Assembly (NCBI RefSeq): GCF_015326965.1
Contig: NZ_CP017659.1
Span: 6,957,001 to 7,021,000, forward strand
Length of the DNA: 64,000 nucleotides
Direction: 5' to 3'
From: Paenibacillus sp. JZ16
GTDB lineage: Bacteria; Bacillota; Bacilli; Paenibacillales; Paenibacillaceae
Shown: positions 5,618 to 62,630 of the stretch, piece by piece
Layout: each line of letters opens with the position of its first letter
How positions within the stretch are numbered: position 1 is the first letter of the stretch
Position numbers and translations under genes: made by a program
Notes under the pieces: model-generated
Database searches by the model: none
Told to the model about the DNA's origin: nothing
The model's input: only the letters and a program-made list of their open reading frames with translations

Positions 5618-5893
5618 TAAAAAAACTCCCAATCCGCATACTACCTCCGTAGTAAGGGACGAGAGTTATTCGTGGTGCCACCCTTATTCGCTGCCATGTT
5701 GCGGCAGCCTCAAGCGGTCTGTTCAGACCATGATTGGTAACGGATATCATCCGATTTGCGCCTACTTCAAGTTTCAGCGAAATATCTCAGGAACGCTCAA
5801 GAATACTTTTACGCCACCGATTTACACCAACCATCGGCTCTCTGAGGACGTTACAGCATCTCTTTTCCATCATCGGTTTTCACAGATTAATTT
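5618..5893 (-). promoter_or_regulatory. T-box riboswitch leader of serA
   Basis: Read on the minus strand, the region has the conserved T-box core AGGGTGGCACCACG (5684 down to 5671), preceded by hairpins that fit stem III (GCTGCC/GGCAGC and GGTCTG/CAGACC) and by a stem I apical part with AGAGAGCCGATGG. After the core comes a competing terminator: AACTC near 5667 pairs with GAGTT before a run of seven T at 5625-5619. Such leaders bind a specific tRNA and read through when it is uncharged. A UCC triplet at 5792-5790 is a possible serine specifier; this assignment is inferred from the gene and the local fold, not proven. Confidence 0.93.
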
Positions 5894-6108: not shown

Positions 6109-6708
6109 ATGAAAAAATTTAAAATACGCGTAAAAAGAATCGAAGCCCACCAATTAAACGATCGGCTGCTGCTTATTAATCTGTATCTTACCCAAGCATT
6201 GACACTTATTGCAGGGTTGATCTGGATCCTGTTTCAGCAGAGGAATCCGTTTGGGCTCTTTGTCATTCCGAAGGATATCGAGTTCGTTTATTGGGGGCTC
6301 GGGCTTGCTGCTGCCATGCTGGTAGTGGATTTTGTATTATCCCGGTTTGTGTCAGAGGATAGTATGGACGATGGCGGAATCAATGAAATGCTGTTCCGCA
6401 AAAGGCCGGTTTGGCATATTTTTGTTATAGCTTTGGTTGTATCCATCTGCGAGGAGTTATTGTTTCGGGGAGCCATCCAGCATGCGTTCGGACCGTACTG
6501 GACGAGTATTTTGTTCGCGCTTATTCATGTCAGATATTTAAAGCATTGGCTTCCAACCGGGTGGGTTTTCTTAAGCAGTTACGGTCTGGGCTACGTCTAT
6601 ATTCAAACGGGTACCATTTGGGCACCAATCCTGTGCCATTTTCTGATTGATTTCATATCAGGAATGTTGATTCGGTTTCGGAGGAAAGAGGAACATGAAC
6701 GAACTTAG
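6109..6708 (+). CDS. CPBP family intramembrane glutamic endopeptidase
   Basis: A 199-residue membrane protein of the CAAX-protease/bacteriocin-processing (CPBP, Abi) family. Visible motifs are EELLFRG at residues 115-121 (motif 1, EExxxR), FALIHV (motif 2, FxxxH) and HFLID near the C terminus (motif 3), all within or next to predicted helices. These residues form the active site in this family. The physiological substrate is not predictable. The ribosome binding site is weak. The gene overlaps the next one by 14 bp and forms a three-gene group with it and a metallophosphoesterase. Confidence 0.85.
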   Translation: MKKFKIRVKRIEAHQLNDRLLLINLYLTQALTLIAGLIWILFQQRNPFGLFVIPKDIEFVYWGLGLAAAMLVVDFVLSRFVSEDSMDDGGINEMLFRKRPVWHIFVIALVVSICEELLFRGAIQHAFGPYWTSILFALIHVRYLKHWLPTGWVFLSSYGLGYVYIQTGTIWAPILCHFLIDFISGMLIRFRRKEEHERT

Positions 6709-44268: not shown

Positions 44269-44315
44269 TCTAATAACATAACAATAATCGCAGCTTGAAA
44301 CGAGTGAGAGAGAAC

Positions 44316-45410
44316 ATGACCATGCAAATTTCTATTTTCGGCGTCGGCTTGATCGGCGGTTCGTTAGCATTAAACTTCAAAGGTAAACCAGGCATAACCG
44401 TTACCGGTTATGCCCACACGCAGGAATATGCCGACCAGGTAATCGCCAAGGGCGTTGTCGATAAGGTTACGCTTTCGGTGGAAGAAGCTGCCCAGGACGC
44501 GGACGTCATATTTTTGTGCGTTCCGGTAGGAAGTCTCGAGATGTACATAAAACGTCTGAGTGAATTGCGGCTTAAACCCGGATGCATTATTACGGATGTA
44601 GGCAGTACCAAAGCAAGTATTGCCGAATGCGCATCCCAACTTGCCCTTAAGGATGCCTATTTTATCGGTGGACATCCGATGGCCGGCTCGGAAAGATCCG
44701 GTGTCGGCGCTGCCTCCACCGTCTTATTCGAGAATGCATATTATGTGCTTACTCCGCCGGATGATGTCCCTCAGGAGAAGCTGGACATCCTTGTGGAGCT
44801 TCTGTCATATACGCGTGCTCACATTGTAAAAGTGGAGCCAAGGCTGCACGATGAGATTGTTGGAGCCATCAGTCATCTGCCTCATGTGATCGCAGTGGCC
44901 TTGGTGAACCAGATCAGCTCCTACAATGACGATAATCCGTTGTACCGTACGCTGGCTGCAGGGGGCTTTCGGGATATTACCCGTATCGCGTCCAGCGACC
45001 CGGTCGTTTGGCGGGACATTCTATTAAATAATCGCAATGTCATGCTGCCGCTGTTACGAGACTGGAACGAAGGAATCCAGCGATTTATGGACATGCTGGA
45101 GTCGAAGGACGGGGCTGCTATTGAAGAGGCTTTCCGCAGAGCGGGGGAATTCCGCAGCGTGCTGCCGGAGCGAAGGAAGGGAATGATCGTTCCCCAATAT
45201 GATTTGTATCTGGACGTGCCTGACCATCCGGGTATCATTGGCCGCATAGCGACGGATTTGGGGACGAACAGCATCAACCTCAGCAACATGCAGATTATCG
45301 AGAGCCGGGAAGATGTGCCTGGTGTGATGAGGCTTTCCTTCCGCAATGAAATCGAACAGGAGCGGGCGAAAGAGCTTCTGCTGTCGCAAGGACACTCGGT
45401 GTACCAGTAA
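44316..45410 (+). CDS. tyrA: Prephenate dehydrogenase with ACT domain
   Basis: 364 residues. NAD-dependent conversion of prephenate to 4-hydroxyphenylpyruvate. Rossmann motif IFGVGLIGGSLAL at the start, DVGSTKASI, GGHPMAGSERSG with the catalytic His, and a C-terminal ACT domain (LYLDVPDHPGIIGRIATDLG) that usually mediates tyrosine feedback. ATG 44316 or 44322; a TTG at 44295 is also in frame, and the ribosome site is weak (GAGAGAG). In B. subtilis aroE follows; here it does not. Confidence 0.95.
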   Translation: MTMQISIFGVGLIGGSLALNFKGKPGITVTGYAHTQEYADQVIAKGVVDKVTLSVEEAAQDADVIFLCVPVGSLEMYIKRLSELRLKPGCIITDVGSTKASIAECASQLALKDAYFIGGHPMAGSERSGVGAASTVLFENAYYVLTPPDDVPQEKLDILVELLSYTRAHIVKVEPRLHDEIVGAISHLPHVIAVALVNQISSYNDDNPLYRTLAAGGFRDITRIASSDPVVWRDILLNNRNVMLPLLRDWNEGIQRFMDMLESKDGAAIEEAFRRAGEFRSVLPERRKGMIVPQYDLYLDVPDHPGIIGRIATDLGTNSINLSNMQIIESREDVPGVMRLSFRNEIEQERAKELLLSQGHSVYQ

Positions 45411-45412
45411 TT

Positions 45413-45438
45413 TTCCGGTTGTTTTTAAACAACCGGAA
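45413..45438. repeat. Perfect 12-bp inverted repeat after tyrA
   Basis: TTCCGGTTGTTT (45413-45424), two T, AAACAACCGGAA (45427-45438), starting 2 bases after the tyrA stop. There is no T-run behind it, so it could be an RNA 3' stabiliser or a weak terminator of the supraoperon, or a protein site just upstream of the next promoter. Confidence 0.7.
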
Positions 45439-45456
45439 ATAAATGCGTTTTCAGTG

Positions 45457-45485
45457 TTGACAAAATGAAAACGTATACATATAAT
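45457..45485 (+). promoter_or_regulatory. Consensus SigA promoter without an adjacent gene
   Basis: TTGACA (45457-45462), a 17-base spacer, TATAAT (45480-45485): a perfect match in both hexamers and in spacing, the best promoter in the window. A terminator lies just 55 bases after the likely start at 45490-45492. Confidence 0.85.
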
Positions 45486-45489
45486 AAAA

Positions 45490-45571
45490 GTACAGTATGG
45501 TTTCTCTCCACTCCTATCCAAAATATTGCACTGTGTGCAACCGCCTTCAATGTTGAAGGCGGATTTTTTTT
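45490..45571 (+). ncRNA. Candidate small RNA of about 80 nt
   Basis: Between the consensus promoter and the terminator is a short non-coding stretch with three parts. A pyrimidine-rich, unpaired 5' region (45501-45519, with CTCTCCACTCCTATCC) could pair with AGGAG-type ribosome binding sites. A 6-bp hairpin follows (TTGCAC/GTGCAA, 45526-45540). The intrinsic terminator CCGCCTTCAA/TTGAAGGCGG (45541-45562) ends in seven to eight T. No start codon with a ribosome site occurs in it. It may instead be a leader of the sigma factor gene 200 bases downstream. Confidence 0.6.
45541..45571 (+). terminator. Terminator of the candidate small RNA
   Basis: A 10-bp perfect stem, CCGCCTTCAA (45541-45550) and TTGAAGGCGG (45553-45562), then A and eight T. 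Confidence 0.92.
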
Positions 45572-45611
45572 GTCTTTTTTCCTATCCGTGGCAAAGCTGC
45601 TGCCACAAACC

Positions 45612-45639
45612 TGAACTTTTCTCCAATATGTGCTATAAT
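45612..45639 (+). promoter_or_regulatory. Candidate promoter of the ECF sigma operon
   Basis: Extended -10 TGCTATAAT (TATAAT at 45634-45639) with a poor -35 (TGAACT, 16-base spacer). No clear ECF-type autoregulatory promoter (AAC near -35) was recognised. Confidence 0.45.
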
Positions 45640-45774
45640 GCTAGAGTGCTAGTGTAGAAGATTTGGGGAAATTGCCAAATACATAGAATAGTCAGACATC
45701 TTGTGGCGTAACTATATATGGTTTGACGGTACTTTTGCACAAATCCTTGAACATTGCATCCGGAGGGAGATGTA

Positions 45775-46416
45775 ATGGACAGGGAAGAGGCACCGGATGG
45801 TGAAGGAGGAACGAAAAATCATATGACGGATTCCCAACTAATCCAAGAAATTAAGCAAGGCAATACCGAACTTTATTCCGAATTAATGCGGCGTTATCAG
45901 AGAAAAATATTAGCATTTGTCTATCATATGTTAAAAAGTTCGCACATGGAGCTTATGGCTGAAGATTTATGCTCGGAAACATTTTATAAGGCATTCCGGA
46001 GTTTGCACTCATTCCGGGAAGTGGATGCATCCTTCTCGACCTGGCTCTATACCATAGCCCGCAACACCGTTCTCAGCGAACTGCGCAAGCATCGGAGCGG
46101 CACATTGCCGCTGGAGGAGAGCGGGGTCGTGCCTGTGGCTCCGCTGGAGGTTGCTCCGGAGCAGGCAATCCTACGCAGTGAACGAGTACATATGGTAAGG
46201 GAAGCAATTAATAATTTGCCGGAGAAACAGAGATCGGCGCTGATTCTGCGGGAATATGATCAACTGGATTATCAGGAAATCGCGGATATTTTAGGTCAAA
46301 GCGTCAGTTCGGTTAAGTCATTGTTGTTCAGAGCTCGCGGCAGTGTCAAAATTCAGCTCGAACCCTATTTTTATGAGCCGGTTATTGAGGATCTGAGAGG
46401 GATGAAGAACAGATGA
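45775..46416 (+). CDS. ECF-type RNA polymerase sigma factor
   Basis: 213 residues. Region 2 spans about residues 30-100 (YSELMRRYQRKILAFVYHML, then the -10 recognition helix AEDLCSETFYKAFRSLHSF), and region 4 about 145-200 with NNLPEKQRSALILREYDQLDYQEIADILGQSVSSVKSLLFRARG. That is a group 4 sigma. Start ATG 45775 follows CGGAGGGA by 6-8 bases. It overlaps the anti-sigma gene by ATGA. SigW-like in style, but I cannot name the specific family; not part of the B. subtilis order here. Confidence 0.9.
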   Translation: MDREEAPDGEGGTKNHMTDSQLIQEIKQGNTELYSELMRRYQRKILAFVYHMLKSSHMELMAEDLCSETFYKAFRSLHSFREVDASFSTWLYTIARNTVLSELRKHRSGTLPLEESGVVPVAPLEVAPEQAILRSERVHMVREAINNLPEKQRSALILREYDQLDYQEIADILGQSVSSVKSLLFRARGSVKIQLEPYFYEPVIEDLRGMKNR

Positions 46417-62390: not shown

Positions 62391-62630
62391 AAGAGGCGGT
62401 ATCGCCATGAGCGAATTGCACTCTTCAGCAAGTGGCAATGAACATTTTTTTAGAACACCTTCATAACTGTTATGCCGGTTACGTTGGATTCTGCTCTGAG
62501 CCGAAAGGACCGAGACAGAAGGGACGATCGCGAGTGACTCTTTTTTGCCTTTCGGACTTTTTAGCAAGTATGTGCTAAAAGGTTTTTTTTATTGTGTCTA
62601 ACTTATTTACACAAAGGAGGCTGTGTCACA
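62391..62630 (+). promoter_or_regulatory. Structured 240-nt leader of panB, candidate pan-type element
   Basis: Non-coding leader between the promoter and panB. Several small stems: an outer AAGAG/CTCTT (near 62390-62436) enclosing GGCG-GTAT-CGCC, and CATAAC/GTTATG near 62463. It ends with an intrinsic terminator (62557-62590) that stops 23 bases before the ribosome site. Leaders of panB in Firmicutes are known to carry the pan RNA motif; I cannot verify that motif here, but an attenuation mechanism is likely. Confidence 0.55.
62557..62590 (+). terminator. Terminator inside the panB leader
   Basis: CTTTTTAGCA (62557-62566) pairs with TGCTAAAAGG (62573-62582, one G-U), followed by eight T. 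Because panB starts only 40 bases later, it is an attenuator of panBC rather than the end of birA. Confidence 0.85.

Follow-up and report, generated by a model that had tools for sequence, protein, structure and literature searches.

A candidate CcpA-controlled small RNA gene with a conserved anti-ribosome-binding-site seed in Paenibacillus and other Bacilli

Introduction

SR1 of Bacillus subtilis, a small RNA (sRNA) of approximately 205 nt that encodes SR1P, is repressed under glycolytic conditions. The operator of CcpA, termed cre, has the consensus WTGNAARCGNWWWCAW, which is printed in published papers. Two sRNAs, RosA and RsaI, have been published as CcpA-repressed (PMC8216469, PMC9266662). 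According to these sources, RsaI (RsaOG) of Staphylococcus aureus is made at low glucose, is conserved in Staphylococcus and not in Bacilli, and possesses G-rich sponge regions (PMC9266662, PMC8216469), while its C-rich stretch pairs with Shine-Dalgarno sequences, among them the one of glcU_2 (PMC9266662). RosA of B. subtilis is described as a stand-alone CcpA-repressed sRNA that acts as a G-rich sponge of RoxS and FsrA (PMC8216469). In Paenibacillus, an RNA-seq study reports 27 intergenic sRNAs, most of them with no assigned function (PMC5670726).

The RNA described here, predicted in Paenibacillus sp. JZ16, may be one of those 27; none of the literature matches listed describes it, a text search with the letters of its seed gave no bacterial paper, and the gene apparently has not been described so far. 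Its working mode is likened to that of RsaI or RoxS, although by the tests run it is a member of neither family. With RsaI it shares a C-rich stretch and a predicted repression by CcpA, but it has no RsaOG match and its cre is often located in the terminator. With RoxS/RsaE it has in common a C/U-rich stretch, predicted to be mostly unpaired in the new RNA, a terminator, a wide range in Bacilli and the proposed blocking of ribosome-binding sites (RBSs), whereas it differs in structure and apparently in transcriptional control. Like RosA it appears as a stand-alone sRNA with predicted CcpA repression, yet a G-rich stretch is lacking from its invariant part and none of the 45 carriers tested gave a RoxS match, so that, by the published descriptions of RosA and RsaI, the new RNA is neither of the two. 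In comparison with SR1 it is short, approximately 80 nt, and carries no coding signal, the common trait being repression in the presence of sugar, which is proposed for the new RNA.

Results

Anatomy of the locus and the predicted transcript

The window analysed is a 64-kb stretch of DNA in which the sequence TTGACA-N16-18-TATAAT occurs once, at 45457-45485 of the forward strand, and in none of 100 shuffles. With its 17-base spacer and a 12/12 match to the sigma-70-type consensus, this is the sole perfect promoter of the window, in agreement with a preliminary description made from the letters alone, which had ranked it as the best one and noted that no gene follows it. There is indeed no long gene inside the transcript, and the downstream neighbour, an ECF sigma factor gene on the same strand (45775-46416), begins outside it. 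The usual upstream neighbour is tyrA (44295-45410, forward strand), which encodes prephenate dehydrogenase and is named here by sequence recognition, not by a family search. The predicted sRNA of approximately 80 nt occupies 45491-45571 of the forward strand, its start being inferred from the -10 box and from the onset of invariance described below.

The pyrimidine stretch, hairpin and terminator are all present where the preliminary description had placed them. The 20-nt seed core GGTTTCTCTCCACTCCTATC (45499-45518, forward strand), mostly unpaired in predicted folds and complementary to RBSs, is followed by the 6-bp hairpin 1, located at 45526-45540 (forward strand), the sequence of which varies between lineages, and by an intrinsic terminator at 45541-45571 (forward strand), where the stem covers 45541-45562 and is followed by an A and eight T up to 45571. 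The 10-bp perfect terminator claimed earlier holds as an inverted repeat in the DNA, but folds as a 9-bp stem with a 4-nt loop. The predicted fold of the 80-nt RNA has an energy of -22.4 kcal/mol (z -3.86), and 0 of 200 shuffles are equally stable. The preliminary description nevertheless understates the locus; it overlooked a perfect cre within the promoter spacer, and the proposed CcpA control and the candidate sugar targets discussed below are new with respect to it.

Directly after tyrA, at 45412-45439, lies the inverted repeat TTTCCGGTTGTTTTTAAACAACCGGAAA without a T run, which is probably the tyrA terminator. Elsewhere in the window, the Rfam search reports a T-box leader at 5652-5882 (reverse strand) and a pan motif at 62393-62522 (forward strand), both at gathering score.

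Conservation and phylogenetic range

A 161-bp segment of the locus finds a match in 100 of the 100 genomes searched in the genus, and the pyrimidine stretch is invariant. The alignment comprises 102 genus loci (two genomes twice), and invariance was counted, ungapped, on a single copy from each of 100 genomes. Between -8 and +20 relative to the seed, where the predicted transcript has its initial 29 nt, 100/100 copies are identical. The -35/-10/cre region is 84-100% conserved in the genus, except for two positions that the cre leaves free, and most other flanking positions are conserved at 32-80% (genus loci, ungapped); the invariant block stops short of the terminator. Since the invariance starts at the expected transcription start (approximately 45491), selection appears to act on the RNA.

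With at most 3 mismatches, the 24-mer core is found in 295/295 genomes and 19/19 genera of the family, 145/149 genomes and 36/38 genera of the order, and 126/299 genomes and 56/118 genera of the class, where a few of the 3-mismatch matches may be due to chance; the backwards control pattern has 0 matches in the same three genome sets. Among 299 genomes drawn across the phylum, the 20-mer with at most 2 mismatches matches six, five of them from Paenibacillaceae. The sole match outside the class (G847, 2 mismatches) was rejected, as the control pattern also has one match in this genome set, and the G847 locus has no likeness to the 24-mer at up to 4 mismatches. A named collection yielded 117 stretches with a variant pattern designed to exclude most Paenibacillus, and the taxa of the 80 that were listed include Aneurinibacillus, Shouchella clausii, Halalkalibacterium halodurans, Halalkalibacter, Fictibacillus, Pseudalkalibacillus, Alteribacillus, Geomicrobium, Marinococcus, Melghirimyces, Kroppenstedtia, Ammoniphilus and others. 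The sRNA with a C/U-rich anti-RBS seed, as originally proposed, is thus strongly supported by genome comparison, and that a real, independent sRNA gene is present is about as sure as such comparison can make it.

A few lineages have the RNA in a second copy, flanked by promoter-like and terminator-like sequences (L199-L202, in genomes G469, G626 and G658). In Alteribacillus, two Bacillaceae-1 RNAs flank the new sRNA (L213:5601-5668 and 6171-6238).

Predicted RNA structure

The seed is mostly unpaired, with no more than 6 of its 20 nt paired in 234 of 265 distinct predicted transcripts, each of which begins at the seed's GG and ends at the T run (35-106 nt, a few ending at an early T run). Covariation, which had been proposed as a check for both hairpins, is seen in the terminator as the compensatory exchanges A-U to G-C and C-G to U-A in an alignment of 41 sequences, 10 of which have one terminator pair broken. 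For hairpin 1 it is seen in one of two alignments: a G-C to A-U exchange is present in the second (35 sequences), whereas in the first set the hairpin shows no variation. A hairpin that would display the seed in a 17-nt loop, closed by GG..CC pairs in 180 of the 197 distinct forms, was also considered. Its outer stem shows no covariation, with 3.28 pairs against 3.26 with swapped arms, and in the CCAT subset 1558 of 2000 swaps were equally good; as this is no better than swapped arms, a seed-presenting hairpin is not claimed.

In some lineages the spacer between the -35 and -10 boxes contains a string of 7-11 nt that is reverse-complementary to the seed, for example GGAGTGGAGAG (loci L136, L138, L139, L165, L166, L167 and L172). 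A lineage with the altered seed CCACCCC has GGGGTGG in this spacer.

The cre site and CcpA

The cre ATGAAAACGTATACAT in the promoter spacer (45465-45480, forward strand) matches the consensus at 14/14 informative positions, the positions over which all cre sites were scored. It is the only perfect cre in the whole window; at least one occurs in 6 of 100 shuffles. A weaker cre-like site precedes the -35 box (45439-45454, reverse strand, 12/14), and a site at this offset is present in 8/102 genus loci. Within the 155 bases around the seed a perfect cre is found in 155 of 294 distinct segments versus 2 of 6568 background windows taken from these loci, and a cre of at least 13/14 in 223 of 294 versus 29 of 6568, the 294 segments being related and hence not independent.

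Counted by lineage at a threshold of at least 12/14, a promoter cre is present in 101/102 genus loci (the exception, L099, reads N there), in 30/30 loci of genus g13 and in 10/10 from other families of the order. Among the 14 loci of family f32, 13 have the promoter cre and all 14 a terminator cre. Both positions are likewise occupied in 5/6 Shouchella loci, in both Alkalicoccobacillus loci and in one of the four Halalkalibacter, and a terminator cre is found in Halalkalibacter (4), Alteribacillus (2), Salibacterium (2), Sinobaca (1) and Geomicrobium (3). No cre of at least 12/14 was detected in 11 of the 20 class samples L165-L184, in Melghirimyces, Kroppenstedtia and 9/10 Aneurinibacillus-type loci, nor in some Fictibacillus and Pseudalkalibacillus loci. 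The cre therefore shifts position between lineages yet remains at the gene in many. A ccpA gene scores above the curated cut-off in 39/45 carriers, Paenibacillus sp. JZ16 included, and has some match in 44/45; the sole carrier without any ccpA match (G454) has no cre of at least 12/14 at its RNA.

In many alkaliphile genera (L213-L270 and others) the cre forms part of the intrinsic terminator itself, approximately +52 to +62 from the seed, where CcpA could be a roadblock to elongation or form a loop with a site further upstream.

The gene has its own promoter, its own terminator and a cre at the gene, the features by which a CcpA-controlled sRNA gene is recognised, and on these sequence features it is very likely under CcpA control. 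CcpA can also activate, and the sign of control is here inferred to be repression because the cre overlaps the promoter.

Complementarity of the seed to candidate targets

The complement of the seed reads as an ideal RBS with a spacer and the beginning of a start codon. A long-duplex search of the JZ16 genome gave 13 matches, one of which is the RNA gene itself, versus 9 for a control pattern, and a single mRNA forming a long duplex in JZ16 was rejected, none rising above the control. A 9-mer RBS search in seven genomes yielded 17-21 matches in six and 5 in the smallest; the genes matched in more than one, closely related, genomes are cggR and those for a U32 peptidase, a solute-binding protein and a lactonase. 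The cggR gene, which heads the glycolytic operon and encodes a glycolytic regulator, was first chosen because it matched in JZ16. Over 30 genomes (two of them non-carriers), the complementarity between its RBS and the seed is not better than for shuffles (56 of 300 shuffled seeds as good). Within Paenibacillales 32 of 1000 shuffles were as good (22 genomes), and with one genome per genus the real seed beats 984 of 1000 shuffled seeds, 16 being as good. In six carriers outside Paenibacillales 515 of 1000 were as good, and cggR as a class-wide target was rejected on account of this result and that over 30 genomes.

A 12-mer RBS scan of 295 family genomes found 112 places in 87 genomes, while the backwards pattern, a weak control, gave approximately 26 matches. 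Of these places 69 were read, the last 19 being chosen partly for strings matching known cggR ones. The cggR gene stands at 15 of the 69, in 14 of 19 sampled genomes of genus g6, which are close relatives, and in G113 of genus g15, and the products are 62-72% identical to JZ16 CggR (BLASTP). A PTS IIA gene is found at three places in two genera, two of them with a perfect 19-nt seed match: in G009 and G060, the IIA gene of a cellobiose-type PTS carries AGGAGTGGAGAGAAACCATG, where 19 perfect pairs reach into the start codon, and in G273, from another genus, the RBS string differs by one base. The cellobiose-type operon consists of a regulator, IIA, IIB, IIC and a GH1 enzyme, as named by sequence recognition. 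Sugar ABC permeases also recur (read in 3 genomes, the same string present in 9), as does a class II aldolase (3), and non-sugar genes at such matches include those for an NRPS, a HesB-like protein and RND and MFS transporters. Seed matches of 16 nt precede genes for an amidohydrolase-like protein in G152 and for a lipoprotein-like one in G109. Paenibacillus is generally rich in sugar genes, and their enrichment among the matches is an impression. Respiration or aromatic genes, which had been suggested as targets, are not prominent among the seed-target matches read. The complementarity makes blocking of RBSs by the RNA likely, with cggR and the cellobiose-type PTS IIA gene as candidate targets.

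Insertion of phage-like elements within the seed

In two genomes a phage-like element is inserted within the sRNA seed, approximately 34 kb long in G052 (junction loci L103/L418 and L100/L419) and 40 kb in G062 (L104/L421 and L101/L420), the phage-like genes having been recognised by eye. On the tyrA side of the element the promoter and the seed are kept and are followed by a different hairpin and terminator, presumably supplied by the element, and on the far side GTCTCCACTCCTATCC and the usual 3′ end are left. A large serine recombinase adjoins the first junction in both genomes. As the seed is kept and the terminator replaced, the RNA gene appears to serve as an attachment site in a way that leaves a full-looking RNA gene, similarly to integration into tRNA genes, where the small RNA gene also looks restored after the insertion. 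Carriage of the RNA by viruses or plasmids was considered and rejected: the 20-mer and the junction string have no exact match in IMG/VR and none in plasmids, and a phage search gave one match (E 0.05) to the promoter part only.

Discussion

The reading that we regard as probable, proposed mechanism included, is that of a free-standing gene for an approximately 80-nt, CcpA-repressed and RBS-blocking trans-acting sRNA. When a preferred sugar is present, CcpA on the cre of the promoter spacer would block transcription, and once that sugar is exhausted the RNA would be made. Its 5′ pyrimidine stretch would then pair with RBSs of the type AGGAGUGGAGAG(AAACC)AUG and block the start of translation, above all in genes for sugar uptake and glycolysis, with cggR and the cellobiose-type PTS IIA gene as the best candidates. 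As the promoter carries a cre, the RNA probably adjusts sugar utilisation once favourable sugars are depleted.

The preliminary description had also considered that the transcript is an attenuated leader belonging to the ECF sigma gene; read-through of the terminator would then let the promoter serve 45775 onward. The ECF gene does lie downstream on the same strand in JZ16, and tyrA upstream with the ECF gene downstream is the arrangement in 23/102 genus loci; relative to tyrA/ECF, however, the RNA gene is inverted in 44 of the 102 loci (two genomes twice), has the same orientation in 37 and is undecidable in 21 short loci. Genus g13 also has it inverted in 8/30 loci, and in the 117 named stretches, with tyrA or aroA as the reference, 29 are inverted, 60 have the same orientation and 28 are undecidable; elsewhere it stands beside other genes, and the invariant block ends before the terminator. 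The inversions largely refute such a leader, which we now hold to be highly improbable, and mark the RNA gene as a unit of its own, with a tendency to remain where the aromatic gene cluster ends, the order being tyrA, RNA and ECF gene in the clade of JZ16, whereas the RNA follows aroA in several other lineages. Translation of the seed region itself, as a tiny gene with an ATG at 45497 (MVSLHSYPK...), would account for the ATG being kept in 307/315 loci, but an SD-like string precedes it in 12/316, 162 different peptide continuations of 8-50 residues follow beyond residue 8, and third codon positions are no less invariant than first and second ones. Given the rarity of SD-like strings and the divergence of the continuations, the small ORF was rejected and is scarcely credible. 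The RNA might instead act as a decoy or sponge, or as a site for an RNA-binding protein, with its UCC repeats at 5-nt spacing titrating a partner rather than blocking mRNAs. Conservation of 20 nt across much of the class is long for a seed, and no long duplex was found in the JZ16 genome, both of which suit a decoy; yet the complement of the seed is an ideal RBS with spacer and start-codon beginning, and RBSs of this kind are found repeatedly, in different genera, at cggR and at a PTS gene, which renders a decoy unlikely.

The relation to known families bears on a further possibility, namely that the RNA is a divergent orthologue or a direct functional replacement of RoxS/RsaE, a genome having one or the other. 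No Rfam family reaches its gathering score at the RNA in the window or at the RNA in 18 related loci, and membership in a known family was rejected, since relaxed limits give sub-threshold matches only, such as speF (17.7 bits versus 37) and PyrR (23.4 versus 54). Specifically, RsaOG has no match in 45380-45780 at E≤10 nor in the 18 loci at gathering score, and RF01820 has none in 45380-45780 at E≤10 and none at the RNA in the 18 loci. Even so, both RoxS/RsaE and the new RNA have an unpaired C/U-rich stretch that blocks, or in the present case would block, RBSs of central metabolism; there is also a similarity between the RoxS segment UUUCUCCCAUCCCC and UUUCUCUCCACUCC of the new RNA. Furthermore, RF01820 at E≤0.001 is found in 0/45 carriers and in 19/35 non-carriers (12/35 above gathering score), a split with a Fisher probability of 3.5e-9 that ignores phylogeny and may reflect few events in the tree. 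The 80 genomes of this survey were hand-picked, the filters were stricter and lose weak matches, B. subtilis being positive as a control, and 16/35 non-carriers have neither RNA. Shared C/U-rich strings are also cheap, and B. subtilis RoxS is controlled by Rex, and by CcpA via the sponge RosA (PMC8216469). An orthologue or direct replacement hence seems rather unlikely, though still a serious candidate, and the resemblance of the unpaired segments is taken as a likeness of function only; of the likeness to RoxS noted in the preliminary description, the kind of seed stands, while RoxS/RsaE itself was not found in any of the 45 carriers tested.

With the CcpA-repressed, RBS-blocking sRNA as the preferred reading, a wider proposal can be put forward tentatively, at somewhat less than even probability. 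In Paenibacillales, Brevibacillus-like bacteria, Fictibacillus and alkaliphiles, an undescribed family, present across much of the class, of one 80-nt RNA directly under CcpA may link the sensing of sugar to the translation of glycolysis and uptake genes, as RoxS/RsaE together with RosA or RsaI do in B. subtilis and Staphylococcus, while its operator moves between promoter and terminator hairpin. The single perfect cre, the 20-nt seed and the named candidate targets provide experimental handles, and lineages with the operator in the promoter, in the terminator or in both are natural variants for study. As the new RNA and RoxS/RsaE have so far excluded each other, it can be tested whether bacteria exchange sRNAs in the same regulatory post. 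If the proposal is true, a core post-transcriptional regulator of carbon use has escaped notice in many of the Bacilli despite its near-frozen sequence.
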